The translations under genes and the position numbers were made by a program. Of a DNA stretch of 64,000 bases, positions 11,600 through 30,554 are shown in pieces (positions within the stretch are counted from its first letter, which is position 1; every line of letters begins with the position of its first letter). This stretch comes from Halothece sp. PCC 7418 (GTDB taxonomy: Bacteria > Cyanobacteriota > Cyanobacteriia > Cyanobacteriales > Rubidibacteraceae), in the NCBI RefSeq assembly GCF_000317635.1, contig NC_019779.1, forward strand, positions 3,720,001 to 3,784,000, given 5' to 3'. The notes beneath the pieces are model-generated. The model was not told where the DNA came from. It did no database searches and saw only the letters and a list, made by a program, of their open reading frames with translations.

Positions 11600-11634
11600 G
11601 GTGATGACTGTCAAATAATTAAAGATTGGTGAGT

Positions 11635-13704
11635 TTATCGGGTGCAAAACATTGATGGTTCGGCACAGGGATCCCATTCCGAATCAGCAGTTGTTTCCTC
11701 TTTCGGTTGAGTTACCGTAGGACTTGGATCAGAACTGACTACAGGTTTAGAAGGAGAAGAGGGCTGAGTTGTTCCTGATGTAGCCGTCTGGGTTGTTCTT
11801 GCGGTTGCAGCAGGAGGAGGAGTGGGAGGAGTGGGAGGAGTGGGAGTGGCTGCAGGTTGAGAACGACTACGAGCAGCAGCTAGACCGTCTTCCACATCTT
11901 TGAGCACTAATCGGGCTTGTTCTTGCCAGTAGTCATAGCCACTTCCCGATTGTTGTAATTGTTGGGCTTTTTCTTTGGCCTGTTGCCATTGTTCATTATC
12001 TAAGGCAATTTGCGCCGTAGAGAGTAAGTTTTGGTTGTTTTCATGGAGTTGTTTCAGTTGTTGTTTTTGCGCGATCGCGCTTTCTCGAACTGGGTTAGAA
12101 GGAGCAAGAGCAGCCACCACGTTGTCAAAGTTCTCTAAATTTCCATTTTTCTGATAGTCACTCACTCCTTGTTCTACCAGTTGATTTGACCAATCTTGAA
12201 TCTGGGTTTGTGCTTGCTCATAAACACCACTTTCGGGTTCAATGTCTTCAGTCAGTTTCAGGGCTTCTGAATATTGTTCAGCACGGGCGAAAGATTCGGC
12301 TAAAGCAAGAGAGCATTTGCCATAAAACTCTACTTTCAACTCTTGAATGCGTTGGATGTCATTGCCAGAATCACTGTCAACTTTGTCGAGACAGTCTTGG
12401 TATTCTTTTGCCTCGAATAAGGAGGTGACTTCATTTTGGAAGGTTGCAACTTGCTCTTGAGTTTGTTGTTTCTGCTGAGCGGTGCGATGACGATCTAGGC
12501 TATACATTCCCGCACTGGCAATAATCAGAATCACCGAAGCAATGCCCAAATTTTTAGCAAGAGGAGATTGTAACCAACTCACCATGGAATTATTGTTGGC
12601 TTTAGTTTTGGCAGATGGAGTGGCTTCGGATGCTGGAGATGCCTTGTTCACAGAGGAGGCTTCATCAGATGACATGGATGAAGACTGATCTTGAGCCACA
12701 GATTGTTGCTGAAGTGTCTCTTGTTCTGCAATTTTTGAGGGTTGTTTAACGGTTGCTGCTTCAGTTTGAGGGATCATTTCCTCATGATTCAACTCTGATG
12801 AAGTTGCATCCTTGAATTCTTCTGGTAAGATGACTGAGGTTTCCTCAGCATGGGAGTTTGTGGTTAATTTCTCTAAGGCTTCTATGACTTCCTGTGCACT
12901 TTGGTAGCGGTCTTTAAAGTCATGATGAATCATTTTTGAGAGAATTCTCGCTAAGCCTGCACTAACCGTCACTCTTGATTGAAGCTCACCTGCTTCGTTT
13001 TCCATCTGTTGCCAAACCAGTTCTCCATTCTCGTCTTCGGGTAAATCAATGGGATTGACTGCGATTAGAGCCTGAATCGCAACCATACCCAGTGCAAAGA
13101 TATCGCTAGATGGGCGCGGTTTCCCTCGGATTTGCTCGGTGGGCATATATCCCCGAGTCCCAATGGCGACCGTCGATTGTACTAGCTTGGTTTGAAACGA
13201 TTCTTTGACCGCACCAAAATCCACCAGCACAATTTTCCCATCTTCACCGCGTCGGATTAAATTGGCGGGTTTGATATCACGATGGATAATGGGAGGGCTT
13301 TGGGAATGAATAAAGTCTAATAAGGGAAGGCAGTCTTGGAGAAGGGCAATCACGGCTTGTTCCGACCACTGTTGACCAGCACTCAATTCTTGATCTAAGG
13401 GGGGGCCGTCAATGAAGTCTTGCACCAGATAAAAGTCTCCTTCTTCTTCAAAGTAATCTTTGAGGTAAGGAATTTGATTATGAGTTCCCACTTTCGCCAG
13501 AGTGGCTGCTTCTTTCTCAAAGAGTTTCTTGGCTTGGGCAAAATGGTTGGGGTCTTTGACTAAGGGTTGTAACTGCTTGACGACACATTTGGGCTGTGTG
13601 GGAATATTTTCATCCTCAGCGAGAAAGGTGACACCAAATGCACCTGACCCAATATTTTTGAGGATGCGATAGCGAGAGGCTAAGAGTTGGTTTTGAATAG
13701 TCAT
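11635..13704 (-). CDS. Membrane Ser/Thr protein kinase (Pkn2/Hanks type), intact copy 1
   Basis: Residues 13-280 are a eukaryotic-like kinase domain: Gly-loop GSGAFG (19-24), ATP lysine VVKQ (K43), catalytic loop HRDIKPAN (141-148), DFG (162-164) and GTRGYMPTEQ in the activation segment. A low-complexity linker (285-375), one membrane helix (about 386-403) and an extracytoplasmic helical repeat region (TPR-like) follow, then a Pro/Thr-rich tail. All catalytic residues are present. A 7-G run at 13399-13405 (coding GPP) is one base longer than in the broken paralogue at 18720. It is followed by a COP23 gene 35 bp away. Confidence 0.95.
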   Translation of the reverse strand: MTIQNQLLASRYRILKNIGSGAFGVTFLAEDENIPTQPKCVVKQLQPLVKDPNHFAQAKKLFEKEAATLAKVGTHNQIPYLKDYFEEEGDFYLVQDFIDGPPLDQELSAGQQWSEQAVIALLQDCLPLLDFIHSQSPPIIHRDIKPANLIRRGEDGKIVLVDFGAVKESFQTKLVQSTVAIGTRGYMPTEQIRGKPRPSSDIFALGMVAIQALIAVNPIDLPEDENGELVWQQMENEAGELQSRVTVSAGLARILSKMIHHDFKDRYQSAQEVIEALEKLTTNSHAEETSVILPEEFKDATSSELNHEEMIPQTEAATVKQPSKIAEQETLQQQSVAQDQSSSMSSDEASSVNKASPASEATPSAKTKANNNSMVSWLQSPLAKNLGIASVILIIASAGMYSLDRHRTAQQKQQTQEQVATFQNEVTSLFEAKEYQDCLDKVDSDSGNDIQRIQELKVEFYGKCSLALAESFARAEQYSEALKLTEDIEPESGVYEQAQTQIQDWSNQLVEQGVSDYQKNGNLENFDNVVAALAPSNPVRESAIAQKQQLKQLHENNQNLLSTAQIALDNEQWQQAKEKAQQLQQSGSGYDYWQEQARLVLKDVEDGLAAARSRSQPAATPTPPTPPTPPPAATARTTQTATSGTTQPSSPSKPVVSSDPSPTVTQPKEETTADSEWDPCAEPSMFCTR

Positions 13705-15722: not shown

Positions 15723-17555
15723 TTAAAAGATATCGATATCTCGGAAATGAAAGCGAACAACACCAAGATTTAATGTAATTGGTTTATCGCCTTCTGGAAT
15801 TGCTGTTAAGCCAAATAAATACACACCGCTTGAATTAGGATTTTTTTTAGGGATTAAGCCCACGGTGAAGGTTGTTCCTGGCATTAAAGGCTCTGTAAAG
15901 GTGATGGTAACTGTCTGTGTTTCTTCATCAAGGGATGTCTCTTGGATAGCAAGTTTTTGTCCTGAGTTGCGGTTTTCTCCTGTAAAGGCGATTGTGTCTT
16001 CAAGTTGATACCTGATACTCTCAGTGGAGCGATGTTGTTTGATTTGTACGGCTTGTAAGCCTTGTCCAGCGTTGGCTGGGAGTGAAAAGGTGAAGTAATG
16101 TTTAGCGCCTCGTGCTCCTATGCCATTTCGGGTTGTACGAGCGCGAAGTACATGGGGTGACTCTTTAAATGTTGCTCTCTGGTTCGGTTGTTGGTTGGTA
16201 TTATCAGAACTAGTTGAGGAATTATTAGAAGCATTATTGGCAGCTAACTCTGGAGGTTCGGAATTATTAGCAGGACTAGTTGAGGAATTATTAGAAGCAT
16301 TATTGGAGACTAACTCTGGAGGTTCGGAATTATTAGCAGGACTAGTTGAGGAGTTATTAGAAGCATTATTGGCAGCTAACTCTGGAGGTTCGGAATTATC
16401 AGCAGGACTAGTTGAGGAATTATTAGAAGCATTATTGGCAGCTAACTCTGGAGGCTCGGAATTATTATCAGAACTAGTTGAGGAATTATTAGAAGCATTA
16501 TTGGCAGCTAACTCTGGAGGCTCGGAATTATCAGCAGGACTAGTTGAGGAGTTATTAGAAGCATTATTGGAGACTAACTCTGGAGGTTCGGAATTATTAG
16601 CAGGACTAGTTGAGGAGTTATTAGAAGCATTATTGGCAGCTAACTCTGGAGGTTCGGAATTATCAGCAGGACTAGTTGAGGAGTTATTAGAAGCATTATT
16701 GGAGACTAACTCTGGAGGTTCGGGAGCACTTGGAACGAAAGCAAAATTATTATCGAGAGACGTGGAAACCCAAGGTATTTGTTTGCCTCCAGTTTCTTGC
16801 TTCACCATGCGTCGGACATCTCTCATCATCAGTACGATATCTTGACCAGGTGTGCTCATCCCTTTGAGTAAAGCACCCGTAAATGTTCCGTTACGACCTT
16901 TACCATCAGAAGCAACATCCCCAGGTGCAGTGGCATAAGCAATTAACATTCCTTCTGCTCTTACCTCAGCTAAGCCTTGAGAACCTGAGGAACGCCAACC
17001 CCGACTAAAGGGATTATTGCGACAAGCATCAAGAATGACAATATTGACTCCATTTCCCGCATCTTCCATGCGTCCGAGGACTTTGCCTAGGGGAAGACTT
17101 TCGTAGCGAATATCTGACTCTGATTGGATCTCAGCATCAATTGGAATTAAATAGTTTTCTCCTTGAGTTTGCATCCCATGCCCAGCATAATAAAAGAGTC
17201 CAACACTGCCCGATTGCAACTCGTTCGTAAAATTATTGACAGCGGATTCCATTTTCCTTAAATCAGCGTCTGTGACTGTAATGACTTTGTCAAATCCTAA
17301 CTCTTGCAACATGGCTGTGATGTCTGTCGCATCATTGACTGGATTTTGCAAAGGGCTTCCAACTGTGTAATCAGCATTGCCAATCACTAAAGCTACACGC
17401 CGACGATTATCCGCGCGATCGCGCGGATGTGACAGAAGTTCACTGCCTTCTCTCAATTCGGTTTGAGCAAACAACGACTGTTCATGCCCAATACTAAAGG
17501 CTGACAATGAACCGATCATTGCTATACCAATGGAAATGAAATGTAGCTTTCCCAT
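15723..17555 (-). CDS. Exported caspase-fold (peptidase C14) protein with repeat linker and DUF2808 domain
   Basis: The 610-residue protein (start MGKLHF; an in-frame start 30 bp upstream would lengthen the signal peptide) has a signal peptide ending near SLFAQ. Residues 53-280 are a p20-like caspase domain with RVALVIGNADY, catalytic His in YYAGHG (H126) and Cys in LDACRNNPF (C178). Eight 22-residue repeats (SEPPEL..NNASNNSSTS) follow, then a C-terminal DUF2808 domain (SPHVLRART to VVRFHFRDI). It should act as a cysteine protease with Arg/Lys preference in the periplasm. It follows the COP23 gene at 17623 by 67 bp on the same strand. Confidence 0.9.
   Translation of the reverse strand: MGKLHFISIGIAMIGSLSAFSIGHEQSLFAQTELREGSELLSHPRDRADNRRRVALVIGNADYTVGSPLQNPVNDATDITAMLQELGFDKVITVTDADLRKMESAVNNFTNELQSGSVGLFYYAGHGMQTQGENYLIPIDAEIQSESDIRYESLPLGKVLGRMEDAGNGVNIVILDACRNNPFSRGWRSSGSQGLAEVRAEGMLIAYATAPGDVASDGKGRNGTFTGALLKGMSTPGQDIVLMMRDVRRMVKQETGGKQIPWVSTSLDNNFAFVPSAPEPPELVSNNASNNSSTSPADNSEPPELAANNASNNSSTSPANNSEPPELVSNNASNNSSTSPADNSEPPELAANNASNNSSTSSDNNSEPPELAANNASNNSSTSPADNSEPPELAANNASNNSSTSPANNSEPPELVSNNASNNSSTSPANNSEPPELAANNASNNSSTSSDNTNQQPNQRATFKESPHVLRARTTRNGIGARGAKHYFTFSLPANAGQGLQAVQIKQHRSTESIRYQLEDTIAFTGENRNSGQKLAIQETSLDEETQTVTITFTEPLMPGTTFTVGLIPKKNPNSSGVYLFGLTAIPEGDKPITLNLGVVRFHFRDIDIF
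16195..16722. repeat. Minisatellite: eight 66-bp in-frame repeats inside the caspase-like gene
   Basis: Each unit encodes 22 residues, with the core SEPPEL, AANN or VSNN, ASNNSSTS and PADN/PANN/SDNN variants. Units differ by only a few bases. The variants alternate in a pattern suggesting block duplication of two or more units. Because 66 is divisible by 3, a long open frame also exists on the opposite strand, but it is a by-product. Confidence 0.95.
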
Positions 17556-17622
17556 AACTTTAAATCGAGCATTTCCACCCCACATAACATCTCACCAGTG
17601 AAACCAATTGTACTACGAAACA

Positions 17623-18630
17623 TTAGGGTTGACCGTGATTGAGTCTTCTTTCTAAAAAGTCATCCCAAATAATCACTTCTTTCAATTCCTCATTCCCAAA
17701 ACTTCGATAAATGCCTCCGCTATCTGCCCGTTCTCGGAGATTAAAAAGTTCTCTTAACACTTGATTCGGATTATCTTGAGGTTGTAATGTGATTAAAAGA
17801 CCATCATTTCTGCAATCACCTGCATCATTTTTTGCAACACAAATTACGGGTTGCCGATTCATAGTTCCCGTTGAGATATAGCGGAGAGTTTTCGCATCAG
17901 AATGTTGCTGAAAGCGTGCCGTTACTTGATCACAACGTCGTTGCGGTGTATAACCCGTTCCCGAGAAAAACTCACTTTTCCAAATAATGAGTTCGATTCT
18001 CCCCCGTTTCGTATCAACGACCGTAACTGGTTTGTCTCCACGTTCATTTAAGCAGAAGTATTGGATTGATGGTTGAGGTTGGGTTGCTGTTGTATTGGAG
18101 GGAGATTCACTGTCGTGATTAGGGGAGGATTGGGATGGATTTGTTCCGCTTGGTTGGTTGAGATTTACAACTTTCTTTTGAGAGTTGCCCTGACTATTTT
18201 CGATTAATGAATTATCAAAAAAATGCTTTAATACGTCTTCGGTATTAATTTTATTTTTTAACATAATGAGAAAACCAAAGTTATTACCTGTACAGTTTCC
18301 CGATTGATTGGCAGTACATAGAAAATATTGATTATTCAGCGTGCCAAGAGCAATAAACCCCAGATTATTATTACTCATTAAACGTTGCAAGCGAGAAGAA
18401 AATTCTAGACACGCTTTAGCAATATCGTCACCATCAATTAAGGATTCGACCTCTTGCCAATTAATCAGTTCGATGGCTTGATTTTTGCCTTGAAAAGTGG
18501 TTACTAACTCACCCTCTTTAGAAACACAGTTATAACGATTGGATTGAGCGACAGAAGAAGTTGAACTGATCAAAAAACTAGATAAAAGTGTGGTTGCAAT
18601 TATAAGGGGGCTAATCAGGCGATTGATCAT
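17623..18630 (-). CDS. Exported protein with two COP23 domains
   Basis: A 335-residue protein with a signal peptide ending about TSSVAQS. Domain 1 (about residues 32-145) has YNCVSKEGELVTTF and FIALGTLNNQYFLC. A Ser/Asn/Pro linker (about 150-190) leads to domain 2 (190-335) with YFCLNERGDKPV, RGRIELIIWKSEFFSGTGYTPQRRC and STGTMNRQPVIC, closely similar to the single-domain protein at 11042. Domain 1 is more diverged and lacks the WKSxFFSG segment. It sits 89 bp downstream of the second kinase, repeating the kinase-COP23 order seen at 11-13.7 kb. Confidence 0.82.
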   Translation of the reverse strand: MINRLISPLIIATTLLSSFLISSTSSVAQSNRYNCVSKEGELVTTFQGKNQAIELINWQEVESLIDGDDIAKACLEFSSRLQRLMSNNNLGFIALGTLNNQYFLCTANQSGNCTGNNFGFLIMLKNKINTEDVLKHFFDNSLIENSQGNSQKKVVNLNQPSGTNPSQSSPNHDSESPSNTTATQPQPSIQYFCLNERGDKPVTVVDTKRGRIELIIWKSEFFSGTGYTPQRRCDQVTARFQQHSDAKTLRYISTGTMNRQPVICVAKNDAGDCRNDGLLITLQPQDNPNQVLRELFNLRERADSGGIYRSFGNEELKEVIIWDDFLERRLNHGQP

Positions 18631-18719
18631 TGATCAGGAATCTCCTTTCTTTAAACAATCTTTAAATATTAGTGTGTTTAGTCTGTTAAGTTGCTATCGA
18701 ATCGAGCAAGTGCTTGGTA

Positions 18720-20761
18720 TTACTGAGGACAAAATCCAGCCTCCACAGCATATTCATCTTGGCACAGATCAACGACCTCTTTTTCTTGAGGTTGAGAGGG
18801 CGTGTTTTTTGGGGTTGAAGAAGGTGACGGTGAAGGAGTGGTTTCCCGTGGAGAAGGTGGCTTTGGTGTTCCTGTTTTAGCAGAAGAAGGAGGAGTAGCT
18901 ACGGGTTGAGAACGACTGCGAGCATTAGCTAGACCGTCTTCCACATCTTTGAGCACTAATCGGGCTTGTTCTTGCCAATAGGGATAACCTTTCCCAACTT
19001 GTTGTAATTGTTGGGCTTTTTCTTTGGCCTGTTGCCATTGTTCATTATCTAAGGCAATTTGCGCCGTAGAGAGTAAGTTTTGGTTGTTTTCATGGAGTTG
19101 TTTCAGTTGTTGTTTTTGCGCGATCGCGCTTTCTCGAACTGGGTTAGAAGGAGCAAGAGCAGCCACCACGTTGTCAAAGTTCTCTAAATTTCCATTTTTC
19201 TGATAGTCACTCACTCCTTGTTCTACCAGTTGATTTGACCAATCTTGAATCTGGGTTTGTGCTTGCTCATAAACACCACTTTCGGGTTCAATGTCTTCAG
19301 TCAGTTTCAGGGCTTCTGAATATTGTTCAGCACGGGCGAAAGATTCGGCTAAAGCAAGAGAGCATTTGCCATAAAACTCTACTTTCAACTCTTGAATGCG
19401 TTGGATGTCATTGCCAGAATCACTGTCAACTTTGTCGAGACAGTCTTGGTATTCTTTTGCCTCGAATAAGGAGGTGACTTCATTTTGGAAGGTTGCAACT
19501 TGCTCTTGAGTTTGTTGTTTCTGCTGAGCAGTCTGATGACGATCTAGGCTATACATTCCCACACTGGCAAGAATCAGAATCACCGAAGCAATGCCCAAAT
19601 TTTTAGCAAGAGGAGATTGTAACCAAGTCACCATGGAATTATTGTTGGCTTTAGTTTTGGGGGATGACTGCTGATCCATAGAGGATGATTCTTGAGAGGG
19701 GGTTGATGAAGACTGATCTTGAGCCACAGGTTGTTGCTGAAGTGTCTCTTGTTCTGCAATTGTTGAGTTTTGTTTAAGGGTTTCTTGTTCTGGTGGAGAG
19801 GTTGTCGCCTGGGGAGAAACCGTTTCTGATTGCGATTTCTCAACAGATCCTGGGGTAGGAGTAATCCCATTCAAGGCTTCCGACATAATCACTGAGGTTT
19901 CCTCAGCATGGGAGTTTGTGGTTAATTTCTCTAAGGCTTCTATGACTTCCCGCGCACTTTGGTAGCGGTCTTTAAAGTCATGATGAATCATTTTTGATAA
20001 AACATTTGCCAAGCCAGAACTAACCGTCACTCTGGGTTGAAGCTCGCCCGCTTCGTTTTCTATCTGTTGCCAAACCACTTTCCCATTTTCGTCTTCGGGT
20101 AAATCAATGGGGTTAACTCCTGTTATCGCCTGAATCGCAACCATACCCAGTGCAAAGATATCGCTAGATGGGCGCGGTTTCCCTCGGATTTGCTCGGTGG
20201 GCATATATCCCCGAGTCCCAATGGCGACCGTTGATTGTACTAGCTTGGTTTGAAACGATTCTTTGACCGCACCAAAATCCACCAGCACAATTTTCCCATC
20301 TTCACCGCGTCGGATTAAATTGGCGGGTTTGATATCACGATGGATAATGGGAGGGCTTTGGGAATGAATAAAGTCTAATAAGGGAAGGCAGTCTTGGAGA
20401 AGGGCAATCACGGCTTGTTCCGACCACTGTTGACCAGCACTCAATTCTTGATCTAAGGGGGGCCGTCAATGAAGTCTTGCACCAGATAAAAGTCTACCTT
20501 CTCTTCAAAGTAATCTTTGAGGTAAGGAATTTGATTATGAGTTCCCACTTTCGCCAGAGTGGCTGCTTCTTTCTCAAAGAGTTTCTTGGCTTGGGCAAAA
20601 TGGTTGGGGTCTTTGACTAAGGGTTGTAACTGCTTGACGACACATTTGGGCTGTGTGGGAATATTTTCATCCTCAGCGAGAAAGGTGACACCAAATGCAC
20701 CTGACCCAATATTTTTGAGGATGCGATAGCGAGAGGCTAAGAGTTGGTTTTGAATAGTCAT
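18720..20761 (-). pseudogene. Membrane Ser/Thr protein kinase copy 2, interrupted by a 1-bp frameshift
   Basis: From ATG 20761 the frame reads the kinase N-lobe nearly identically to the kinase at 11635 (GSGAFG, VVKQ) up to DFIDGPP, then meets TAG. The frame resumes at once as LDQELSAGQQW and continues through HRDIKPAN, DFG, membrane helix and tail to 18720. The cause is a 6-G run at 20457-20462 where copy 1 has 7. Without the shift the product would be about 680 aa. The linker and C-terminal tail (CQDEYAVEAGFCPQ) differ from copy 1 while the kinase core and juxtamembrane regions are almost identical. It may be a real slippage mutation, a phase-variable state or a sequencing error. Confidence 0.85.
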
Positions 20762-20789
20762 GGTTGTGGGTAACCAACTGGAAATTTTT

Positions 20790-23492
20790 TTAGATCTTCC
20801 AAATGGCAATCTTTTCTCCTTCCACAACACTAGCAAGGGTTTGACCATTGGGGTGCAATGCTGTCACGCCTCGGTAAGCGGTTGGGATTGCCATTGATAA
20901 GACTTCTTCGGCGGTGGTAAGTGACCAGAGTTTAATCCATTGTTGGTCATTAATACTGGCTAACAATTGCTGATCGGGGCTAAAGGTGAGAGCAGAAACA
21001 ATTGATTTTTGAGTGCTAATCGTGCTTTGTTCTTCTCCCGTTTGCACGTTCCAGAGTTTGATGGTTTTATCGCCACTGGTACTAGCAATGATTTGACCGT
21101 CTGGAGAAAAGCTCAGGGCGTTGATGGCAAGTTTGTGCGCGGTAATGGCGAGTTGTTCTTCTCCCGTTTCTACGTTCCAGAGTTTAATGGTTTTATCGCC
21201 ACTGGCACTGGCAATGATTTGACCGTCTGGAGAAAAGCTCAGGGCGTTGATGGCAAGTTTGTGCGCGGTAATGGCGAGTTGTTCTTCTCCCGTTTCTACG
21301 TTCCAGAGTTTGATGGTTTTATCGCCACTGGCACTGGCAATGATTTGACCGTCTGGAGAAAAGCTCAGGGCGTTGATGGCAAGTTTGTGCGCGGTAATGG
21401 CGAGTTGTTCTTCTCCCGTTTCCACGTTCCAGAGTTTAATGGTTTTATCGTCACTAGCAACAGCTAGCAGGCTGCCATCTGGGGAAAAAGCAAGGGCATT
21501 AATGGTTTCAGAGCAAGGGAGGTGAGAGATTTCCTGTTGAGAAATCATTCCCCATAAAGCGGAGGAAGCAACTGTTTCTTGAGATGTTGAGGAAACTGGT
21601 GTTGGAGTCTTTGCTTTCTCCTCAGTTTTTGTGGTTGCTTGTTTGGTTTCGGGAGAAGGAGAGGGAACGGATTCTTTTGGTTGTTCTACGGCTTCTGTGC
21701 TGGGTTGCGAAGTGGGGGTTGCGTTTTTTTCTTCTGCTGTTGATGGCTGCTCTGTTGCGGAAACCTCAGCGGATGGTGCTTCTGCTTTTTTCGGTTCAAC
21801 AGCCTTGTTGTCTTTCTCTTGTTGCTGCTGTTCTCCCACAGGATCTGATTTTTCTTCTTTTTTGGCTGTCTCCTGTTTAGCAGGTTGGTGCTCTTTTTGT
21901 TCCACAGCAGGATCGGCTTTTTCCTCTACTGGAGGTTGAGAGTCGGATTTTTCTTCTTCAGGAGTCGAAACGGGGATAAAAACGGTTGTCGGTAAGGCGG
22001 AATGCTCAAAAATTAGTTCGGGTCCTTTATAACCAAGAGTGACGCGATCGCCAGATTTAAGGGAATACCAACCTTCAATCCGCTCGTCATTGACCAGTGT
22101 TCCATTGGTTGTCCCCGTATCTCGAATTTGCCAACCAGCTTCTTGCCCTTTTTTGATGTACTTAATTTCCGCGTGACGGCGGGAAACCGTGACATATTCC
22201 ATGGGATTAAGAGCAATTTGGCATTCTGGCGATCGCCCAATGACGGTTACCTCTTCTGAGGAGAGAAAATATTGTTGAGTTTTTGATTCATTTTGGGATG
22301 AGGAGGAAGGATATAAAGTTAAAGTAGCAACAAGATTAGAACTTGCATTGGACATAATTGTGGTTTCTCCTAGTGATAATTCGTTCCAAGTTGGAGGCAT
22401 TTCAGCAGGGTTTTGAAAAATCAGGGGTAACCAACTTGCCCCTGGAAACTCTCCTTCAATACCTTCTAGTCTTTCTCGGGCTTCTCTGAATGATAGGTAG
22501 AGGGATTGTCCTCGGGAAAAAGCAAATAAAAAATGTTTTAGAAAAATCTGAGCAACGCGATCGGGCACGGGCTCTCGCATTAAAATCATTTGCGGAAAGT
22601 GTAAATCACTTAACTGATTAGCTAACCCCAGTCCTTGACAAGAGTTAAAAATCGCTAACTGTAATCCGCTTTTGAGCGCCCGATTGAGAGCATTTTTAAG
22701 CTGAGTAATGGTGATTTTTTCTGTGGGATTAATATAAATTTCTCCTGTTTCACCATCGGCTTCACTACGACTATGTCCCGCAAAAAAGAGAAGATCCCAT
22801 CCTGCTTGATGCCACAAGTATTCATTTAATTCTTGACGAGAGGGCTCGACTAAAAAAACGACGTTTGCGCCTTGTAAATTTTCTAGTAAAGCGCGATCGG
22901 TTTCAACATCAATCCCTAAACTATTTCCTAAAATTGCTAAAATTCGGACTTGTTTAGCAGGGTTAATGACTCGTCTTACTGATTTAAATTCGAGGGCACT
23001 AAGGGCAACTTCTGCATAAGGATAGTCTTGGAAAAATTGCCAAATTGACCAAGGAATTTTTCTCAATTCTTGATCTGAGGTTTGAATAATAAAACGAATT
23101 TGATCATGAAAATTAAATTCTTGGCGCAAGTTACGCTCTATTTGTTGAAAGCCATCAGAATTCAACCACTGATCAAGACACTGTTTGAATTGTGTCGCAA
23201 CGGTTAATAAATCTTCTTCTGAAGCATGAGTCAGATCAGTATCATGAATGAAAATGCTACTATCTTCTTGCCGATTCAGATTGGGTAATTCGCGACTGCC
23301 TAAAGAACGTGACTGATACAGTAGATGGTAAATGGATTGCCAACGTTGATAATAATCAAGTAGTTCTGGTATGGGGGGTAAATGCCCCGTTACTTGCATC
23401 AAGTAGTTTCCCGATTGCGAGCTAACGCTAACAAAAGGAAATCCCTGATGTAAGTTTCCTGTACCTAAGTTTAAGATGGCTAATTTACTCAT
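20790..23492 (-). CDS. CHAT protease - FHA - WD40 multidomain protein
   Basis: A 900-residue protein. Residues 1-370 form a CHAT (caspase-fold) domain with catalytic His in FFAGHS (H240) and Cys in FNSCQGLGLA (C285). Residues 405-495 are an FHA phosphothreonine-binding domain (GR 419-420, SRRH 437-440, TNGT 462-465). A 140-residue Lys/Glu/Pro/Ser/Thr-rich linker leads to about six WD40 repeats (650-900) with SPDGQIIASASGDKTIKLWN units. No signal peptide is seen, so it should be cytoplasmic. The gene lies 28 bp upstream of kinase copy 2, whose product could supply the phosphothreonine ligand. The substrate is unknown. Confidence 0.93.
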   Translation of the reverse strand: MSKLAILNLGTGNLHQGFPFVSVSSQSGNYLMQVTGHLPPIPELLDYYQRWQSIYHLLYQSRSLGSRELPNLNRQEDSSIFIHDTDLTHASEEDLLTVATQFKQCLDQWLNSDGFQQIERNLRQEFNFHDQIRFIIQTSDQELRKIPWSIWQFFQDYPYAEVALSALEFKSVRRVINPAKQVRILAILGNSLGIDVETDRALLENLQGANVVFLVEPSRQELNEYLWHQAGWDLLFFAGHSRSEADGETGEIYINPTEKITITQLKNALNRALKSGLQLAIFNSCQGLGLANQLSDLHFPQMILMREPVPDRVAQIFLKHFLFAFSRGQSLYLSFREARERLEGIEGEFPGASWLPLIFQNPAEMPPTWNELSLGETTIMSNASSNLVATLTLYPSSSSQNESKTQQYFLSSEEVTVIGRSPECQIALNPMEYVTVSRRHAEIKYIKKGQEAGWQIRDTGTTNGTLVNDERIEGWYSLKSGDRVTLGYKGPELIFEHSALPTTVFIPVSTPEEEKSDSQPPVEEKADPAVEQKEHQPAKQETAKKEEKSDPVGEQQQQEKDNKAVEPKKAEAPSAEVSATEQPSTAEEKNATPTSQPSTEAVEQPKESVPSPSPETKQATTKTEEKAKTPTPVSSTSQETVASSALWGMISQQEISHLPCSETINALAFSPDGSLLAVASDDKTIKLWNVETGEEQLAITAHKLAINALSFSPDGQIIASASGDKTIKLWNVETGEEQLAITAHKLAINALSFSPDGQIIASASGDKTIKLWNVETGEEQLAITAHKLAINALSFSPDGQIIASTSGDKTIKLWNVQTGEEQSTISTQKSIVSALTFSPDQQLLASINDQQWIKLWSLTTAEEVLSMAIPTAYRGVTALHPNGQTLASVVEGEKIAIWKI
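21040..21450. repeat. Near-identical 126-bp repeats encoding WD40 blades
   Basis: Three to four consecutive 126-bp units encode almost identical 42-residue WD40 repeats (for example DKTIKLWNVETGEEQLAITA). Sequence identity is far above what the fold requires, indicating recent duplication or continuing gene conversion. Confidence 0.9.
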
Positions 23493-23525
23493 AAGACATT
23501 CTAGGTGGCTATCCCTTACCGCTAG

Positions 23526-24772
23526 TTAGGGAATTGCCACTTTCAAAGACTCGGTTAAGATTAAGTCTCCTCGGGTCACTTGCACTTGAATAATCCCGCC
23601 TTTTTTACAGGTGAATTGCTTCAGTTGAATCATGGAATCGTTATTTCTGGCTTGTACCTCTTGAAGCATTTGACTAAACCGAGATAATAATCCTAGTTTG
23701 ATATTTGTTGGTAAATATCGTTGCTCATTGATGGACTGCAGTTGAATGCGGATTCCAACTTTGTCTTCACTTTTAGGACGAATGCTGACAATCAGTGCAA
23801 CTTGATTTTTAGAATCTTCTCCTAAGTCTAACAGTTTGATGCCCTGAACCATTTCTGCTTCAAGAGAATCAATTTTTCTAAAACTATAGGCAAGATTGGG
23901 AGTTGATTGAGCTTCTACTAACTCTTCTAGAGACTGCCATCCTGCTTCAAAAACCTGTTGAAACCATTGTGCCAGATGAGTAATTTGGGGTTGCTTCGGT
24001 GCAGTGGCTAATAAATGTTCTAACTCCTGTTTTTTTCTGGATAACTATATAGTAAATAACGCCACGTTTGATTGATGAAAAGGTTTCCCCAATGCTGGAA
24101 TGGCATCGCTAGTCTTAATATATTTGCCCTTTCATACTGAATGTTATGAATAAAATGTGCTACTTCATTAGCAGAAACTTGGGGTAAGGAATCCACTTGC
24201 GGAGGCATCTCTTCAGAGAGTTCCCACATCACCCACATTGCGGATAAATCTTCAGTTAAGGCACTCATTTCAAGGGAGTAGGTTTTATCAAGGGGATCAA
24301 AATGTCCTTGTTTGGATAATTGTTCATGGGAGGCAAACCCTGAGATTCTTAAGAAACAATTTTCGACATCAATATGGGCTGCTAAATAGTAATTTCCCAC
24401 CCATTCGGGAAGATCAACCCATTCTTGATCAACTCGTAATTCCTCTGCTGCGATGTCTTCGCTGGGGATAATAATTAATCGGGTTTGATTGAGAGTAATG
24501 GCAAGACCATTGATTAGTTGCCAGAGATAAGGAAATTCATCGGCATCGGGATACGTTTTTAATTCAGCATTTTGGAAAGTGGAATCATTTTGTAAATAAT
24601 TTATCATTGTCTCAAGACACAACGCATTGAGAAAGGCTCGCCAACGACTGCTTGCATCTTGGTATTTAAAGTTTGCGGTTTCTTTCCAAGCGCGATCGCG
24701 CTGCTGAGGACTAAATTCTAAGACCAGTTGGTCGGGATACAGTAAAGCGACATCATCTAACATTAAAGACAT
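23526..24772 (-). pseudogene. DUF1822-family protein, interrupted by a 1-bp frameshift
   Basis: The N-terminal part (from ATG 24772, behind AAGGAG) has the family features ending in LRISGFASHEQL and a WRYLLYSYPEK segment. It then stops at TAG about 24022. In the -1 frame the reading continues without a stop through KQELEHLLATAPKQPQITHL to the C-terminal DUF1822 part (LLDLGEDSKNQVALIVSIRPKSEDK and VTRGDLILTESL) ending at 23526. The junction is a 7-A run (24030-24036 on the complement) reading A_AAA_AAC; eight As would restore one protein of about 415 aa. DUF1822 has no known activity. It lies between the sigma-like and CHAT genes. Confidence 0.75.
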
Positions 24773-24782
24773 CAATTTCTCC

Positions 24783-26330
24783 TTATAGTTTTGCAGAAAG
24801 GGTGGCTTTATTTCGAGCAAGCCAGTCTTTGAGAAAGTTCTCTATTTTCTGAAAATAGGACTCATAACTGGTTAGTTTAATTCCTAGTCTTTTTTCAATT
24901 TCGACCACAAATAGTTCCCGAATTTTTTCTAATTCATTTGTTTCTGAAACAGGCTGTTCAATTTCTTCTAAAATTTGTTGTCTTTCTTCAGAACTAAGGT
25001 GATAAAAAATTACCTCCTCCAGAATTTGGGTAAAAAAGGATTTACTGTAAAACTCTAAATAGCTTTTTAAGTAAGCGAGTTTCTCTTTAGAACAAAATTC
25101 AGACTTGAAAGATTTAGTCTTTTTAGGATTGGATTGCTTCGCTAGATAAGCCTGAGCAATCAAGGTTAAGATATCTTTTTGGTAGCGTTGAAATTGACGC
25201 GCAACCTGATACTGTTTTTGAACCCCAAAGGAAGCGAGAAAATCTTTTTGGTTAATATCTAATCCCAACCATAATAATAAAGAAAGAGAGCCAATGGGGT
25301 CAATCCCATTGAGTGCTTCTAAAATTAACTCTCGATAAGCATTCAACTGCTCTTTTTCTTCTTGTTGAAATGCAACCTGCCAAGGATTTTCAACTAACGG
25401 AGAAGATTCCTCGTTGACTGAAGGAGCAACTTGCAGTGCATCCAAAGAAATTGCCTTTTTTCTGTCTCCTTCTTGGGTTGCTTTTAAGCAAGTGTCTAAA
25501 ACCTCTTCAATCTCTTGCCGATTTAAAGATTTCGCTTTTAATTTAAATGCTTTTGCATAGTCTTGATAAATACTTTTCAACCTAGTCAGTTGTTCCTGAT
25601 TCAGGGATTGAATAGAAGAACAACCCTTTTGACCATTCTTAACAGAAATTTCGTCTAAGACATCTTTAAAAGATTGCCAAACTAAACGATACCGAATTAA
25701 CTCATCACCAGAAATCCCCCACCGCCGTAATCCCTTTTCCAGTTGAGTTGCTGTCACTGATTTCAGAAAGCCATATCCTGAAAGTTTCAGAGATTTAGAT
25801 TTTAATTCTTTGGCAATCTGATGTTTAACCAAACGACATAAAGCCGTGTAAGCATAAGACTGGGCGGAACCGCCTGCGTTAATATCAAAACTTTTCAGAA
25901 GTTTCTTTGGATACAGAGCTTGTTCTAAAGCTAAAACAAAACACTCTTCTAGGGGATACTGCAAATCAATATTAAACGATTGGCTCAGTTGATAATGAAC
26001 TTTCTTCGCTGCACGCCAACTCGGATTTTGTAAGTAACAAAATAGGAAATGTTGACAATAACTACTCCCTAAAATTGAATAAGTCCAGTAAGGAACTCCC
26101 TTCTCTTGTTTTAAGGGATAAGTGTTTTCTTCAAACGAGCGAAGGGTTTGCAGAAAAGAGTTAGTCCAGTGGGCTTCAGAATCGTTTTCACTACCACTAA
26201 AAACATCTGCTATTAACTCTTGCAAAATGGGATGAGAGTAGTAGATGGGAACAATACGATTGGTAGTTGAGTTAATTCTCAGATAAATGAAACTGGAAAA
26301 CTTTTGAAGAATTGGCTCATGATTAGACAT
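24783..26330 (-). CDS. Large sigma-70-like protein (cyanobacterial type found with DUF1822/CHAT genes)
   Basis: A 515-residue cytoplasmic protein. Residues 148-178 (FDINAGGSAQSYAYTALCRLVKHQI) resemble region 2 of ECF sigma factors. Residues about 335-385 (LLLWLGLDINQKDF, FGVQKQYQVARQFQRY) resemble the region 4 helix-turn-helix of a cyanobacterial sigma-like family. The long N-terminus and the region between do not match anything I know. It is the first gene of a minus-strand run (sigma-like, DUF1822, CHAT-FHA-WD40, kinase, COP23, caspase) and could direct transcription of it. The DUF1822 start is only 10 bp downstream. Function by analogy, not certain. Confidence 0.6.
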   Translation of the reverse strand: MSNHEPILQKFSSFIYLRINSTTNRIVPIYYSHPILQELIADVFSGSENDSEAHWTNSFLQTLRSFEENTYPLKQEKGVPYWTYSILGSSYCQHFLFCYLQNPSWRAAKKVHYQLSQSFNIDLQYPLEECFVLALEQALYPKKLLKSFDINAGGSAQSYAYTALCRLVKHQIAKELKSKSLKLSGYGFLKSVTATQLEKGLRRWGISGDELIRYRLVWQSFKDVLDEISVKNGQKGCSSIQSLNQEQLTRLKSIYQDYAKAFKLKAKSLNRQEIEEVLDTCLKATQEGDRKKAISLDALQVAPSVNEESSPLVENPWQVAFQQEEKEQLNAYRELILEALNGIDPIGSLSLLLWLGLDINQKDFLASFGVQKQYQVARQFQRYQKDILTLIAQAYLAKQSNPKKTKSFKSEFCSKEKLAYLKSYLEFYSKSFFTQILEEVIFYHLSSEERQQILEEIEQPVSETNELEKIRELFVVEIEKRLGIKLTSYESYFQKIENFLKDWLARNKATLSAKL

Positions 26331-26444: not shown

Positions 26445-27350
26445 TTACATAAATCTTCCCAGCAGTTCTTTCGCTTCCGTGAACACGCCAATTGCCGATT
26501 CAAGACCAACATTTGTGGTGTTCATACCAGTGACTAATGTGTCTTTGGTGGTGTCAACGGTATTACCTAAGTCAACAACGGTTTCTCCAATTGTGCTTAA
26601 AGTATCCCGTAATTCCTGCGCCTTACTAATTAACTCCTCAAATTTTTCTTCTTCTTGTTTTCGAGCATCAGCGACCAATTCTTCGGATTTGTCGCGGGTT
26701 TCATTTGCCTTTTCTTCCACTTTGGCTTGAGAGGTTTCAATCACTTCATCAATTTCGCTATTTAGTTCAGAAATCCGTTCTGTGAGTTCAGAAATCGCTT
26801 CCTCAGAAATACTGCTTTGCACGCGATCGGAATTTTCTTGAATTTCCTCTTCATGGCTTTGTAGCTCTTGGGAAATATCTTCGTTGAGACGATTTTCCGT
26901 TTCGGTCGCCTCCTCCTCTAACTCTTCACTAACCTCGTCAACTTTACTGCGGAGGGTTTCCAAACCTTCTTCAATGTTATCGAACAGTTCTTCTAAATCC
27001 GTTCCCTTCGTATCGGAGTCTTCAGCGAGAGATTCTAACTCAGAGGTGGTATTTTCTAGTTCCTCCTCAGCTTCGGATTGCAATTGCTCGGTTGTATCTT
27101 TAAGGGTTGCAATACCATTTCGTAAGGCTTCTCCTTCTGATTGCACTTGTTCTTTAGCAGAATTGACGCGATCTAAAAGGGCTTGTGCTTTCGTTTCTAA
27201 ATCACCCCAATAAGAATCAAATTGCTCTGCAACTTCCACTAACTGTTCCCGGGCTGAAATTAAATTGGTTTCGGTTTCCGTTGCGCGATTCATTAAGGCT
27301 TCCAGTTGATCAGCAGTTTCGAGCGCGGTACTTTCAAAATCGATTGCCAT
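26445..27350 (-). CDS. Acidic coiled-coil protein A (last of four tandem paralogue-like genes)
   Basis: A 301-residue, Glu/Ser/Thr-rich, almost wholly helical protein with no Cys and no Pro. Long heptad-like stretches run from residue 10 to about 250 (LEALMNRATETE, LEELFDNIEEGL, ISELTERISELN). A less charged C-terminal segment follows (VVDLGNTVDTTKD to AKELLGRFM). No signal peptide or membrane helix is visible. The start follows an AGAGGA site. Three similar genes lie upstream on the same strand; a terminator follows. I do not recognise a named family; composition resembles apolipoprotein-like or filament-forming coiled coils. Confidence 0.8.
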   Translation of the reverse strand: MAIDFESTALETADQLEALMNRATETETNLISAREQLVEVAEQFDSYWGDLETKAQALLDRVNSAKEQVQSEGEALRNGIATLKDTTEQLQSEAEEELENTTSELESLAEDSDTKGTDLEELFDNIEEGLETLRSKVDEVSEELEEEATETENRLNEDISQELQSHEEEIQENSDRVQSSISEEAISELTERISELNSEIDEVIETSQAKVEEKANETRDKSEELVADARKQEEEKFEELISKAQELRDTLSTIGETVVDLGNTVDTTKDTLVTGMNTTNVGLESAIGVFTEAKELLGRFM

Positions 27351-27438: not shown

Positions 27439-28365
27439 CTAAGCGAGTCCTAGTTTGGAGGCTTGCTCTTCAACAGCTTGAATTCCTTCCTGAATCGGAT
27501 CGACATACTCCCATAACTCGTCAATGAGAGGTTCAACAAGCTGGCGAGTCCCTGAGGATTCTTCTTTGGAGTCAGTAATGGTAGCGGTCATTTCATCAAC
27601 GGAATCAGTCACTTGTTTAAGCCCATCATCAATGACTTCTTGCAATTCTTGCTCAATTTTGGCTTGAGCTTCATCCATCATGCCGTTCACACCGCCATAC
27701 ATCGACCCTAAGACTGCATCTAAATTATTGGTGAAGTTTTCGGAAATATTGCGAAACTCAGATGCCATCGTCTCAACTTTACTTGCAACTTCCTGTTGAT
27801 TGTTATTCACTTCATTGCTGAAGTTATCAACTTCTTCGCCCATCGTATTTTTGGCAGAGTCCAGTTTTTCGCGAAGCGCGTCAATTTTTTCTAGCGTTCC
27901 CTCCATGGCGGATGTCAGTTTTTCTTGATTAGAGTCTAGAGACTCACGAGCGTTCTCAAAAGTGTTACGGGTTTCCTCTTCAGCAGAATCTGTCTTGCTC
28001 CGACCATCTTGGATTTTGCCTTGCAACTGACTAAACCGAGATTGAGTATCTTCCACCTGAGAGCCCAATTTATCTTGAGCTTCTTCGAGAAATGTCGTTA
28101 AGTTAGAAGCACTGTCTTCAAATTCAGCAATTCCCGATTCTAAATCGGATTGACGGGTTGAGGTTTCCTCCCGCATTTCGTTGAGTGCGTTTTGCACCTG
28201 TTCTAAGATTTCCGTTACTTGCTCTTGTTTGCCTTTTGCATTATCCATTAAGGTTTGCGCTTGTTGTTCCACCGCTTCGGATTCAGTAATAATTGTTTCT
28301 AGGCGAGTGGGAAACTCAGTTACCATCATCGAGAGTCTATCTAAAGCATCTGCTAAACCAGGCAT
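27439..28365 (-). CDS. Acidic coiled-coil protein B
   Basis: 308 residues, no Cys; prolines only near the ends (MPGLAD, FPTRL, LVEPLIDEL, VDPIQEG). The core of about 230 residues is continuous heptad-rich helix (QVTEILEQVQNALNEM, LDSNQEKLTSAMEG). The C-terminal end is more hydrophobic. It has its own AGGAGA site just upstream of the ATG. It matches its neighbours in length, composition and architecture more than in exact sequence, so homology is likely but would need profile comparison. Unknown function. Confidence 0.8.
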   Translation of the reverse strand: MPGLADALDRLSMMVTEFPTRLETIITESEAVEQQAQTLMDNAKGKQEQVTEILEQVQNALNEMREETSTRQSDLESGIAEFEDSASNLTTFLEEAQDKLGSQVEDTQSRFSQLQGKIQDGRSKTDSAEEETRNTFENARESLDSNQEKLTSAMEGTLEKIDALREKLDSAKNTMGEEVDNFSNEVNNNQQEVASKVETMASEFRNISENFTNNLDAVLGSMYGGVNGMMDEAQAKIEQELQEVIDDGLKQVTDSVDEMTATITDSKEESSGTRQLVEPLIDELWEYVDPIQEGIQAVEEQASKLGLA

Positions 28366-28423: not shown

Positions 28424-29416
28424 TTAGAAACCAACGAACTCTAACAGTTCATTCATGGCAGTAATGAGGGCTTTTGCTGCTGCCAATTGCGGGAGAATCG
28501 GCGAAATTGCGCCAGTGACGCTGGTGCCAGTGGTCATTAAGGTAATATTTTCTGTAACTTCAGTTGCCATACTCTTCACAACATCATCAATGGCTTCTTG
28601 AAAAGTCTCTTTCATTTGTTCAGTGACTTCATCACGGGTATAGTTTTGAGTATTTTCGAGGATTTCAGTTAAGCGATCCTTGAGTTGGTCTCCGAGATCG
28701 GAAGTATCATCGCCAAAGGAGTTCATGCTGTCTTCAAAGTTAGTGACGGTTTCTTCAAAGGTAGAAGTAATCTCACTTAATTTGTTATCCGTCAAATCAG
28801 AACTAAAATCAGAGAGTAAGGATTCTAAAGTCGCTTTGAGGCTATCGCCAATTTCATTGGAAGTCTCATCAAAGTCGTTTTCTGAATCCGACTGAGCACT
28901 TTCCATATTTTGTTGGTGGTTGCCAACTTTTTCCTCATAATTGGAGAAAGAATTCTCAGTTTCTTCGCGGGTATCCGATAAGTTATCTTCTAAGGTGGAA
29001 ATGGCTTCTGTGAGTTCACTAAAGGTCTGAGTTAACTCCTCATAGGTACTGTCTAAATCAGACTGACGGGAATCAGCTTCGGACTCAAAGTTGGTTTCTG
29101 AGTCTTCAATGGATTGATCTGCTTCATCGAGCTTCCCTTGCAGTTCTTCTAGAGCTTCCTGTAGGGCTTGCATAGCCTCAATGGTTTCGGTGCGCGACCC
29201 TTCAAACTCATTTCTTGTCGTTTCTAAGAGTTGAGCGGTTTCTTCTAATTCGGTTTCGACTTCTTGTTGTGCTTGTTCGAGTTGGTCACCGGTGCTACCT
29301 AATTGTTGTTGAAGACCAGCCATTGTTTCAGCAGCAACATTTAAGTTGCCTTGAAGAGTCACTAATTTCTCAGTTGCCTCTTCAACATTCATTCCTAATT
29401 CTGCAACGTCTGCCAT
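28424..29416 (-). CDS. Acidic coiled-coil protein C with hydrophobic C-terminal segment
   Basis: 330 residues, no Cys. Residues 10-270 are a Pro-free, Glu/Ser/Thr-rich coiled coil (LEEAQ-like heptads, ETFQEAIDDVVKSM at the end). The last 45 residues are unlike the others: MTTGTSVTGAISPILPQLAAAKALITAMNEL is apolar enough to be an amphipathic or membrane-associated helix pair. Start supported by AGGAG. It lies between coiled-coil proteins B and D with gaps of 58 and 40 bp. Confidence 0.8.
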   Translation of the reverse strand: MADVAELGMNVEEATEKLVTLQGNLNVAAETMAGLQQQLGSTGDQLEQAQQEVETELEETAQLLETTRNEFEGSRTETIEAMQALQEALEELQGKLDEADQSIEDSETNFESEADSRQSDLDSTYEELTQTFSELTEAISTLEDNLSDTREETENSFSNYEEKVGNHQQNMESAQSDSENDFDETSNEIGDSLKATLESLLSDFSSDLTDNKLSEITSTFEETVTNFEDSMNSFGDDTSDLGDQLKDRLTEILENTQNYTRDEVTEQMKETFQEAIDDVVKSMATEVTENITLMTTGTSVTGAISPILPQLAAAKALITAMNELLEFVGF

Positions 29417-29456: not shown

Positions 29457-30347
29457 TTAGAGAACTTTATCAATTGCCTCAAGGACAGGTTTCACTTCTT
29501 CAATGAGATCTGTGACTTCCCCTACACTGTCAACAATCTCACCAATTTCCCCGTCGAGTAATTCTGAGGATTCGCCTCCTGCGCGATCGACAACATCTAA
29601 GGCTTCGCTAACCCCGTCGGAAGAACTGGTGAGTTGCTCAATGAAATCTTCAGCAAACTTACTGGTCAAAGCAGTAATAATTTCATTGGTTGAGTTGTCA
29701 GCGTTCGTTTCAAGGACTTGTTGCTGATTCTTGCTTTCATCAGAAACGGTTGAGAAGTCGTCCGATAAGCTCTCCATTTTTTCTTTCAACTCTTCTTCGA
29801 GAGCGGTGAACTGCTCTAAGAGGTTGTCTTTTTTCTCGGAAAAGCTCTCAGAAAGAGAATCAACGCCACTTTTGAAGTTATCGAGATTGCTTTTTGCTGT
29901 TTCCCGATGATTGTCCATCTCTTCGCCTGTTTCTTCAAGATGTTGGGAATATTGATCAAAGTCAGAGCGGGTGGACTCTGCTTGCTCATCTAACTCACCT
30001 TGAATTTCCTCTTTACGATCGCGCACATTTTGAAGTTTAGTTTTGAAATTATTCAGTTCTTCTTCAACTTTGCTACTAATGTCTTCGATTCGTTGCTGAA
30101 ACTCCTCTAGACCACTATTCGATTGTTCTAACTCAGCTTCAAATTCTTCCTCAGCCGTTTCCAGTTCTTCTAAAATTGCTTCCCAGTTCTCATGGGCTTC
30201 TTGACCGGCGTTACTGAGGGTTTCCACCAAGTTATTGGTAAACTCGACAATTTGATCAACTTCATCCAGTGCATTGGTCCCGTCTAAGAGCAGGGCTTGG
30301 GATTGTTGGTCACATTGGTCAATTAAAACGTCAATACTTTCAGCCAT
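29457..30347 (-). CDS. Acidic coiled-coil protein D (first of four)
   Basis: 296 residues from ATG 30347 (MAESIDVLID), preceded by GAGAGGAAC; a TTG 18 bp upstream is in frame but less likely. One Cys near residue 12 and a single Pro near the C-terminus; the rest is heptad-rich, Glu/Asp/Ser/Asn-rich helix (NWEAILEELETAEEEFE, FTALEEELKEKMESL). The C-terminus (GEIGEIVDSVGEVTDLIEEV) is less polar. It is the promoter-proximal member of the coiled-coil set, 207 bp downstream of the FHA/dynamin-like gene. Unknown function. Confidence 0.8.
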   Translation of the reverse strand: MAESIDVLIDQCDQQSQALLLDGTNALDEVDQIVEFTNNLVETLSNAGQEAHENWEAILEELETAEEEFEAELEQSNSGLEEFQQRIEDISSKVEEELNNFKTKLQNVRDRKEEIQGELDEQAESTRSDFDQYSQHLEETGEEMDNHRETAKSNLDNFKSGVDSLSESFSEKKDNLLEQFTALEEELKEKMESLSDDFSTVSDESKNQQQVLETNADNSTNEIITALTSKFAEDFIEQLTSSSDGVSEALDVVDRAGGESSELLDGEIGEIVDSVGEVTDLIEEVKPVLEAIDKVL

Positions 30348-30554
30348 GTTATTTGTTCCTCTCAATGCTGTTATCTAATTATTGGTCTCTTTGCAGAGGG
30401 AGTATGCACTTTTCTCAAAAATTTAGTGAAACTTTTTTTGGTGATCAGTTCTTGTCCTGATCTGCTTGGGCTGCACAGACTGTATCACAGCCAATTCACA
30501 CTAAAGCTGCACCTCTTTGGAAAAGGGGAGAGTAACAAAAACAAACAGGCAAAA

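Follow-up and report, generated by a model that had tools for sequence, protein, structure and literature searches.

An eleven-gene block was found on the minus strand of a 64,000-nucleotide stretch of the Halothece sp. PCC 7418 genome (hereafter the window; the genome is a single contig of 4.18 Mb). Read from position 32733 to 15723, it encodes a membrane protein with an FHA domain (FHAmem), four coiled-coil proteins, a sigma-like protein, a DUF1822 protein, a CHAT–FHA–WD40 fusion protein, a Ser/Thr kinase, a COP23 protein and a Peptidase_C14 (C14)/DUF2808 protein. The best explanation of these genes, to which we assign a probability of roughly 0.48, is a sigma switch that works by proteolysis and is coupled to a phosphorylation module. 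This explanation is built on the computed gene content, the conservation of the sigma–DUF1822–CHAT set (module B), the fusion of its protease to an FHA-WD40 protein, the CHAT fold and dyad, the co-inheritance of sigma and DUF1822, and the Arg/Lys of the DUF1822 linker. A preliminary description, which covered the six genes in the second half of the block (15723–26330), could not name the combination; its core was described by Kaur et al. (2021), who had already predicted the sigma–DUF1822–CHAT set. For the fusion, and for the second set of genes, module A, to which it provides a link, no description was found in the open-licence PubMed Central literature.

In the scheme that we infer, DUF1822 would bind the sigma-like protein and keep it inactive. 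The CHAT protease would carry an FHA-WD40 reader derived from the kinase module; the Ser/Thr kinase of that module would phosphorylate a target, and FHA binding would recruit or activate the CHAT protein. CHAT would then cut DUF1822 in a flexible linker after a conserved Arg (R298 of the ortholog in G118, a second genome of the same genus; codon 23877–23879 of the window, minus strand). The cut would separate the C-terminal beta-sandwich, release sigma and permit transcription. The cleavage and sigma-release steps have measured parallels, since the sigma inhibitor Csx30 is cut by Csx29 (PMC10028731), the anti-sigma factor CalpT by the Lon protease CalpL (PMC11417357), and PatU3, which limits HetZ, by HetF (PMC12288457).

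Conservation of the Sigma–DUF1822–CHAT Module

The gene neighbourhoods of DUF1822, a survey of which the preliminary description had proposed, were compared in the window and 99 other loci from 40 genomes, some of them near-copies from related genomes. The loci (L015–L114) were fetched at 99 places among the DUF1822 matches and at a second locus of the window genome, and one of them, L114, had no usable DUF1822 open reading frame (ORF); the survey did not include weaker matches of the same class, the many weak matches to a distant family in long frames, or rows outside the listing. The upstream neighbour of DUF1822 lay on the same strand in 97 of 100 cases, at a median gap of 23 nucleotides (nt). 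A sigma-like gene stood at most two genes upstream in 93/100; 47 of these genes belong to a long family, S, and the other 46 to a short family. When the 99 loci and G118 were classified, the interrupted window gene being excluded, a CHAT protease was encoded within five genes downstream in 67 of the 100 rows (58 with N-terminal CHAT and 9 with tetratricopeptide repeats (TPR) and CHAT). DUF1822 occurred in at least 84 of the 116 genomes of a phylum sample, many of which gave only weak matches to the distant family, and in 0 of 14 control genomes among the matches listed.

Probes for the window COP23, C14, FHA and coiled-coil proteins gave 0 matches in the 100 other fetched loci, and the window kinase-domain probe matched nine of them. 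The six genes had previously been taken for one system; these counts led us to reject a single ancestral six-gene system, and sigma–DUF1822–CHAT is a separate, widespread and conserved module.

A second set is present in the window genome (L015, G000:C1:15129–20180 onward), with a sigma-like gene, DUF1822, two small genes and a gene for a CHAT-NACHT protein of 1541 amino acids (aa); one extra small gene there resembles the C-terminal half of DUF1822. At some loci (L049, L105), genes for two-partner-secretion (TPS) exoproteins follow DUF1822.

The Sigma-Like Protein

The sigma-70-like protein of the window (24783–26330, minus strand; 515 aa, long S family) gave no Pfam or NCBIfam match on its own. 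The profile of its family, built from 38 of the 47 S rows, matched solved sigma factors in two stretches: positions 87–152 matched SigA (8h3v, E 2.8e-4), and positions of about 300–360 matched the sigma factor 1l0o (1.2e-8) and FliA (1.2e-7). By these profile matches the stretches stand in sigma order, as regions 2 and 4 (the region names are our assignment), in agreement with the earlier sigma-like call. The NCBIfam model TIGR02937 (sigma-70) matched 23 of the 38 long-family members, the window member not being one of them. The short family matched SigE, of the extracytoplasmic function (ECF) group, weakly (2.6e-4), and on sequence comparison both families look like sigma-70 relatives; hhalign joined them over a 25-column helix-turn-helix stretch alone, with a probability of 37.7. 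NCBIfam scans of the sigma alignment (25 of 127 families listed) and of the DUF1822 alignment (1 family) returned no HetZ or PatU3 model, which is not in itself a test of homology.

DUF1822 and Its Conserved Linker Residue

The DUF1822 gene, encoding the proposed sigma inhibitor and CHAT substrate, lies at 23526–24772 (minus strand). Pfam recognised DUF1822 in two pieces (5.6e-43 and 3.4e-21), so the family had been named correctly, and the gene proved to be split, its frame being lost at an A run near 24026. The G118 ortholog was modelled with a predicted local distance difference test score (pLDDT) of 87.7 and a predicted template modelling score (pTM) of 0.71. The model runs from an alpha/beta domain through a helical part to a C-terminal beta-sandwich, and its least confident residues (294–302) form a linker just before the sandwich. 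Kaur et al. called DUF1822 a TPR protein (PMC8195603); we rejected this assignment, as the alpha/beta, helical and beta-sandwich parts of the model include no TPR array.

Linker position 298 was occupied by R in 65 and by K in 6 of 72 non-gap rows of a 75-row alignment, compared with 41 for the next most uniform column within 286–306. A second alignment gave R 78, K 6 and other residues 14 of 98 at this position, and the residue that followed R or K was Ser in 43, Asn in 9 and Gly in 8 of 84 rows (60/84 together). Orthocaspases reportedly cut behind positively charged residues (PMC6426788). Because of this preference and of the conservation of a basic residue in a low-confidence linker, R298 is a candidate cleavage site.

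A tree of DUF1822 was calculated for 93 of the 100 rows, the seven without a sigma label being excluded. The sigma type changed once on the tree (branch support 99) versus 23–37 times (about 31) in 200 shuffles, and the state of the CHAT neighbour changed 18 times versus 24–37. One change against 18 points to DUF1822 as a fixed, inhibitor-like partner of sigma, and to CHAT as far more exchangeable. On this co-inheritance, we propose an anti-sigma role for DUF1822.

The fold search of DUF1822 in PDB gave a best E of 1.5e-3, none being at or below 0.001. Against a viral library, 12 matches had E≤0.001, nine labelled as uncharacterised and three without a name. The sensor domain of the anti-sigma factor RsgI4 appeared at Z 6.0 among many tied rows, and no Csx30 chain was present among the matches listed.

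The CHAT Protease

The 900-aa fusion protein (20790–23492, minus strand) combines CHAT, FHA and WD40 in one chain, just as had been described. The PF12770 search of the genome detected CHAT with 39.2 bits (cut-off 24), Pfam detected FHA at aa 416–487 (22032–22247; 1.6e-16), where GR, SRRH and NGT are present, which we take to be the FHA motifs, and WD40 repeats were found at about aa 645–900 (20790–21560) by Pfam and DNA self-comparison. The H240/C285 dyad noted before is in place in the active, caspase-fold half (about aa 176–377; 22362–22967) and is conserved in the family, with H in 61/61 and C in 59/59 non-gap rows of a 64-row alignment.

The model of aa 1–395 (pLDDT 90, pTM 0.89) matched separase 5fc2 over aa 1–377 (Z 24.2, root-mean-square deviation 4.2, 319 residues, 14% identity), Csx29 of Craspase (8d9g) over aa 1–365 (Z 21.6, 289 residues) and gingipain R 1cvr (Z 18.7, 273 residues); the Csx29 chains among the matches listed gave Z 19.3–21.6 over 274–304 residues. 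SAVED-CHAT matched at aa 177–370 only, and DdvA (8rot), named an anti-sigma factor in its PDB title, matched with Z 15.5. The CHAT half is predicted to adopt a double caspase fold of the separase/Csx29 type, without a predicted membrane segment. In the model, the N-terminal alpha+beta part (about aa 1–175, the boundary being approximate; 22968–23492) fills the place of the pseudo-caspase, and it would correspond to the domain named EACC2 by Kaur et al.

The C-termini of related CHAT proteins vary. Among 47 of the 64 CHAT-hit ORFs that were scanned with Pfam, CHASE2 was found in 29, Peripla_BP_6 in six, nSTAND1 in five and WD40 in three. Within the WD40 part of the window protein (20880–21459), three copies spaced by 126 nt are at least 93% alike in DNA; the G118 ortholog also has near-identical repeats, but of its own sequence, which suggests that the repeats were homogenised separately in the two genomes.

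Module A and the FHA-WD40 Fusion

Module A comprises FHAmem, the four coiled-coil proteins, the Ser/Thr kinase, COP23 and a stand-alone FHA-WD40 protein. The C-terminal part of FHAmem had matches at E≤1e-8 in 19 of 148 genomes of the order, the window genome (G000) and G118 included. The 16 FHAmem loci that were fetched contained a Ser/Thr kinase gene in 11 cases, COP23 in three and, in five, all four coiled-coil genes with their order preserved; L193 has the kinase, COP23, coiled-coil and FHA-WD40 genes and no FHAmem in the fetched stretch. Stand-alone FHA-linker-WD40 proteins of 457–518 aa were encoded at seven loci, L151, L153 and L157 (three of the 16, fetched for their FHAmem) and L190–L193, and in 4/7 the gene was accompanied by kinase and coiled-coil genes.

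The window CHAT protein aligned with these proteins over nearly their whole length: aa 392–900 with residues 11–515 of 515 (L153; 45%, E 8e-136), aa 386–900 with 4–475 of 475 (L151; 35%) and aa 408–900 with 44–476 of 476 (L157; 40%). No stand-alone FHA-WD40 protein was detected in either genome of the genus with an FHA-containing probe at E≤1e-10, which gave the fusion and the second CHAT only in G000 and the fusion and FHAmem only in G118. The simplest reading of these alignments is that the protease of module B was fused in frame to the reader of module A. It is well established that fused genes tend to be functionally linked, and the in-frame fusion of CHAT to FHA-WD40 would link kinase signalling to the protease. 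The earlier suggestion that kinase output reaches CHAT through FHA gains from the fusion of a whole FHA-WD40 protein, its place beside a kinase in four of seven loci and its retention in G118; the kinase next to it in the window is interrupted, and control by phosphorylation would be the inferred part of the suggestion.

Among the matches listed in 388 genomes of the class (G118 absent), four spanned CHAT past the start of FHA, namely in the window, G370, G239 and G496. The last two were rejected as CHAT-FHA fusions, no FHA being found on inspection. In G370, the gene after DUF1822 encodes a single chain of 1280 aa in which CHAT is joined to two FHA domains, an ABC ATPase and an ABC-2 membrane part. 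Genome G128 has a DUF1822-CHAT-WD40 pair near kinase, FHAmem and coiled-coil genes, the CHAT gene being 4.3 kb from the kinase; as G128 has several CHAT loci, this proximity may be due to chance. An unfused FHA-CHAT neighbourhood was also seen: in 9 of 17 other stretches with FHA proteins, a CHAT protein of 475–637 aa was encoded close by (L167, L169–L171, L173–L175, L178 and L182; FHA proteins of 378–519 aa without WD40).

The Block in the Window and in a Second Genome

All six genes described first are indeed on the minus strand, at about the positions given for them, and the limits of the unit had been drawn too narrowly, for the block extends to 32733 with four coiled-coil genes and FHAmem. 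FHAmem, recognised by Pfam and by comparison with G118, occupies 30555–32733 and is interrupted near 31255. It is followed by the coiled-coil genes cc296 (29457–30365), cc330 (28424–29416), cc308 (27439–28365) and cc301 (26445–27350), delimited as ORFs and by comparison with G118; their products are helical, with weak apolipoprotein, WXG100-like and other coiled-coil matches, and their order is kept in several families. The membrane Ser/Thr kinase gene (18720–20761, by comparison with G118) is present as had been reported, in split form, its frame being lost at a C run near 20457, and an intact paralogue lies at 11635–13704. COP23 (17623–18630) has an N-terminal hydrophobic segment, and its two domains were confirmed as two Pfam stretches.

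The last gene (15723–17585) encodes a protein with an N-terminal hydrophobic segment, a caspase fold as claimed (Peptidase_C14, 6.3e-41) and a C-terminal DUF2808 that had gone unmentioned. Its dyad is intact, as stated, and is numbered H136/C188 from the ATG at 17585, ten more than the H126/C178 given before. Judging by the hydrophobic segment, this protein probably acts outside the cytoplasm; it is tied to the switch by its position in the block alone, in two genomes. Its gene contains a direct repeat with a 66-nt period (16067–16855) that encodes a 22-aa Ser/Asn/Pro-rich spacer, which the G118 ortholog lacks.

The kinase–COP23 pair occurs twice on the minus strand, at 17623–20761 and, intact, at 11042–13704. 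Parts of the two kinase genes reach 99% DNA identity, which indicates a recent duplication or gene conversion. The kinase at L137 (2713–4749) matched many PADLOC models of PD-T4-6 (best 7.4e-98); as these look like models of Ser/Thr kinases in the broad sense, the matches are no proof of a defence function.

In G118, all eleven genes are uninterrupted and stand in identical order on one strand. The identity between the two genomes was 51%–87% by piece, mostly 69–81%. Seven proteins flanking the G118 block (four upstream, three downstream) had no match in the 64-kb window, and the flanks of the two blocks therefore differ. A CHAT-FHA probe at E≤1e-10 had no match in G048, G115, G116 and G117 of the same genus (G117 being 85% complete). 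The block is thus patchy, being found in some members of the genus only, which fits an accessory island. Around the G118 block (L137, 7379–14688), genes for a TPR-CHAT protein, a TPS-domain protein and a ShlB-type transporter were noticed. Intergenic DNA of G000 and G118 shares conserved patches upstream of some genes, and no nameable motif was recognised in these patches in the comparison of the two.

Three genes of the window block, FHAmem (near 31255), DUF1822 (near 24026) and the kinase (near 20457), are out of frame through single-base changes in homopolymer length. We consider it somewhat unlikely that the locus is undergoing decay, or is being switched through slippage, in the window genome, with the duplicated kinase–COP23 pair possibly standing in; such a state would be compatible with the other readings. 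The concentration of three frame losses in one block speaks for it, and the losses are not obviously genome-wide, because all 51 listed (of 66) ABC-ATPase rows of the window genome have open frames of at least 234 aa, a control that is blind to breaks outside the domain. On the other hand, homopolymer errors of sequencing or assembly are just as likely a cause of the breaks, and a tblastn frameshift control covered little beyond the block (25.2 kb of the window, in large part the block, and 1.6 kb of L015), recovering two of the three breaks and missing that of DUF1822 through its own thresholds. In the window genome, the switch may be inactive, wired in another way or affected by sequencing errors; in G118 it is intact.

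Weighing the Alternative Explanations

Several results weigh against a sigma switch that works by cleavage of DUF1822. The linker Arg/Lys was present in 30/32 non-gap rows without CHAT versus 46/57 beside N-terminal CHAT; a linker Arg confined to DUF1822 proteins with a CHAT neighbour is not supported by these counts, and because the residue is at least as well kept without such a neighbour, it may serve another purpose or a distant CHAT protein. DUF1822 had no outstanding structural match, the best Z being 7.6 with matches confined to its C-terminal part. No CHAT gene was found within five genes after DUF1822 in 33 of the 100 rows, and many of the surveyed rows are near-copies from related genomes. 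Three of the seven stand-alone FHA-WD40 genes had neither a kinase nor a coiled-coil gene in the fetched stretch, the CHAT–FHA–WD40 fusion is known here from two genomes of one genus only, and 3/11 block genes, the adjacent kinase among them, are broken in the window genome.

One alternative view follows Kaur et al. In it, the variable C-terminus of the EACC2-caspase would be the sensor of a stimulus, on which the protein would be activated by cutting itself in conflict or cell death, sigma being one of the outputs and DUF1822 an accessory rather than the cut inhibitor. The gene set is named in that published analysis (PMC8195603), NACHT/STAND domains of the kind that conflict systems employ are found among the C-termini, a NACHT domain occurs in the second copy of the window genome, and an accessory DUF1822 would agree with a linker Arg retained in the absence of a neighbouring CHAT. 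Nevertheless, DUF1822 tracks sigma far more closely than CHAT on the tree, and a basic residue conserved within a linker of low model confidence looks like a site of processing. Moreover, a PADLOC scan of ten proteins gave kinase, caspase, repeat and coiled-coil matches only, with none for sigma or DUF1822. We regard this view as unlikely.

It is quite unlikely that CHAT cuts another substrate, for instance the module A coiled-coil proteins, while FHA-WD40 serves as a scaffold and sigma–DUF1822 sets operon expression only. The fusion, which ties CHAT to module A with its four adjoining coiled-coil genes, speaks for this reading; the wide occurrence of sigma–DUF1822–CHAT without such genes (0 of 100 other fetched loci) speaks against it.

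Relation to Known Systems

The proposed sigma switch comes closest to the EACC2 systems of Kaur et al., in which an EACC2-caspase with variable C-termini is accompanied by ECF sigma and DUF1822 in most neighbourhoods without TRADD-N (PMC8195603). Shared with them are the constant N-terminus with alpha+beta and caspase-fold parts (here a two-part fold with a conserved dyad), the variable C-terminus (CHASE2, STAND and others) and the neighbouring sigma and DUF1822 genes. They differ in that the section of PMC8195603 on these systems makes no mention of FHA-WD40 at the C-terminus, that the N-terminal domain and the caspase half were modelled here as a separase/Csx29-like double fold, and that DUF1822, whose model lacks a TPR array, is proposed here as inhibitor and substrate.

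With Craspase (type III-E), the window system has in common the two-part CHAT fold, as predicted by the model, an ECF-like sigma and a third, restraining protein, a role proposed here for DUF1822. Csx29 is separase-like and has a pseudo-caspase and an active-caspase domain (PMC10028731). In contrast to Craspase, no TPR precedes CHAT in the window protein, whose fold starts at residue 1, and the input is a guide RNA there and would be FHA-WD40 and a kinase here. The HetF–PatU3–HetZ system likewise combines a cyanobacterial CHAT protease with an inhibitor of a transcription regulator, whose cutting is proposed in the present case; the window CHAT was rejected as a HetF equivalog, scoring 19.6 bits against the NF045509 cut-off of 1200.

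Separase cuts with Arg specificity, and the window protein resembles it in the predicted fold over aa 1–377 (Z 24.2) and in Arg as the candidate P1 residue. It differs from separase in being bacterial, in its other accessory domains and in the low identity of 14% over the structural alignment, and we know of no cohesin or securin connected with the window system.

Taken further, and more tentatively than the switch itself, a CRISPR-free counterpart of Craspase might be widespread, in which CHAT with a swappable sensor would cut a DUF1822 anti-sigma factor after one conserved Arg to free the paired sigma, and to which the fusion in this genus would add an eight-part kinase module, giving a kinase-to-separase-to-sigma pathway. 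The analysis brings a predicted cyanobacterial gene set to the point of experiment, with one protease, a proposed substrate, a proposed cleavage residue, a sigma and a candidate kinase. If the reading is true, the CHAT proteases guided by CRISPR and those acting in development (HetF) would be particular instances of one broad proteolytic sigma switch whose inputs can be exchanged. The FHA fusion would then provide a natural route from Ser/Thr phosphorylation to transcription under protease control.

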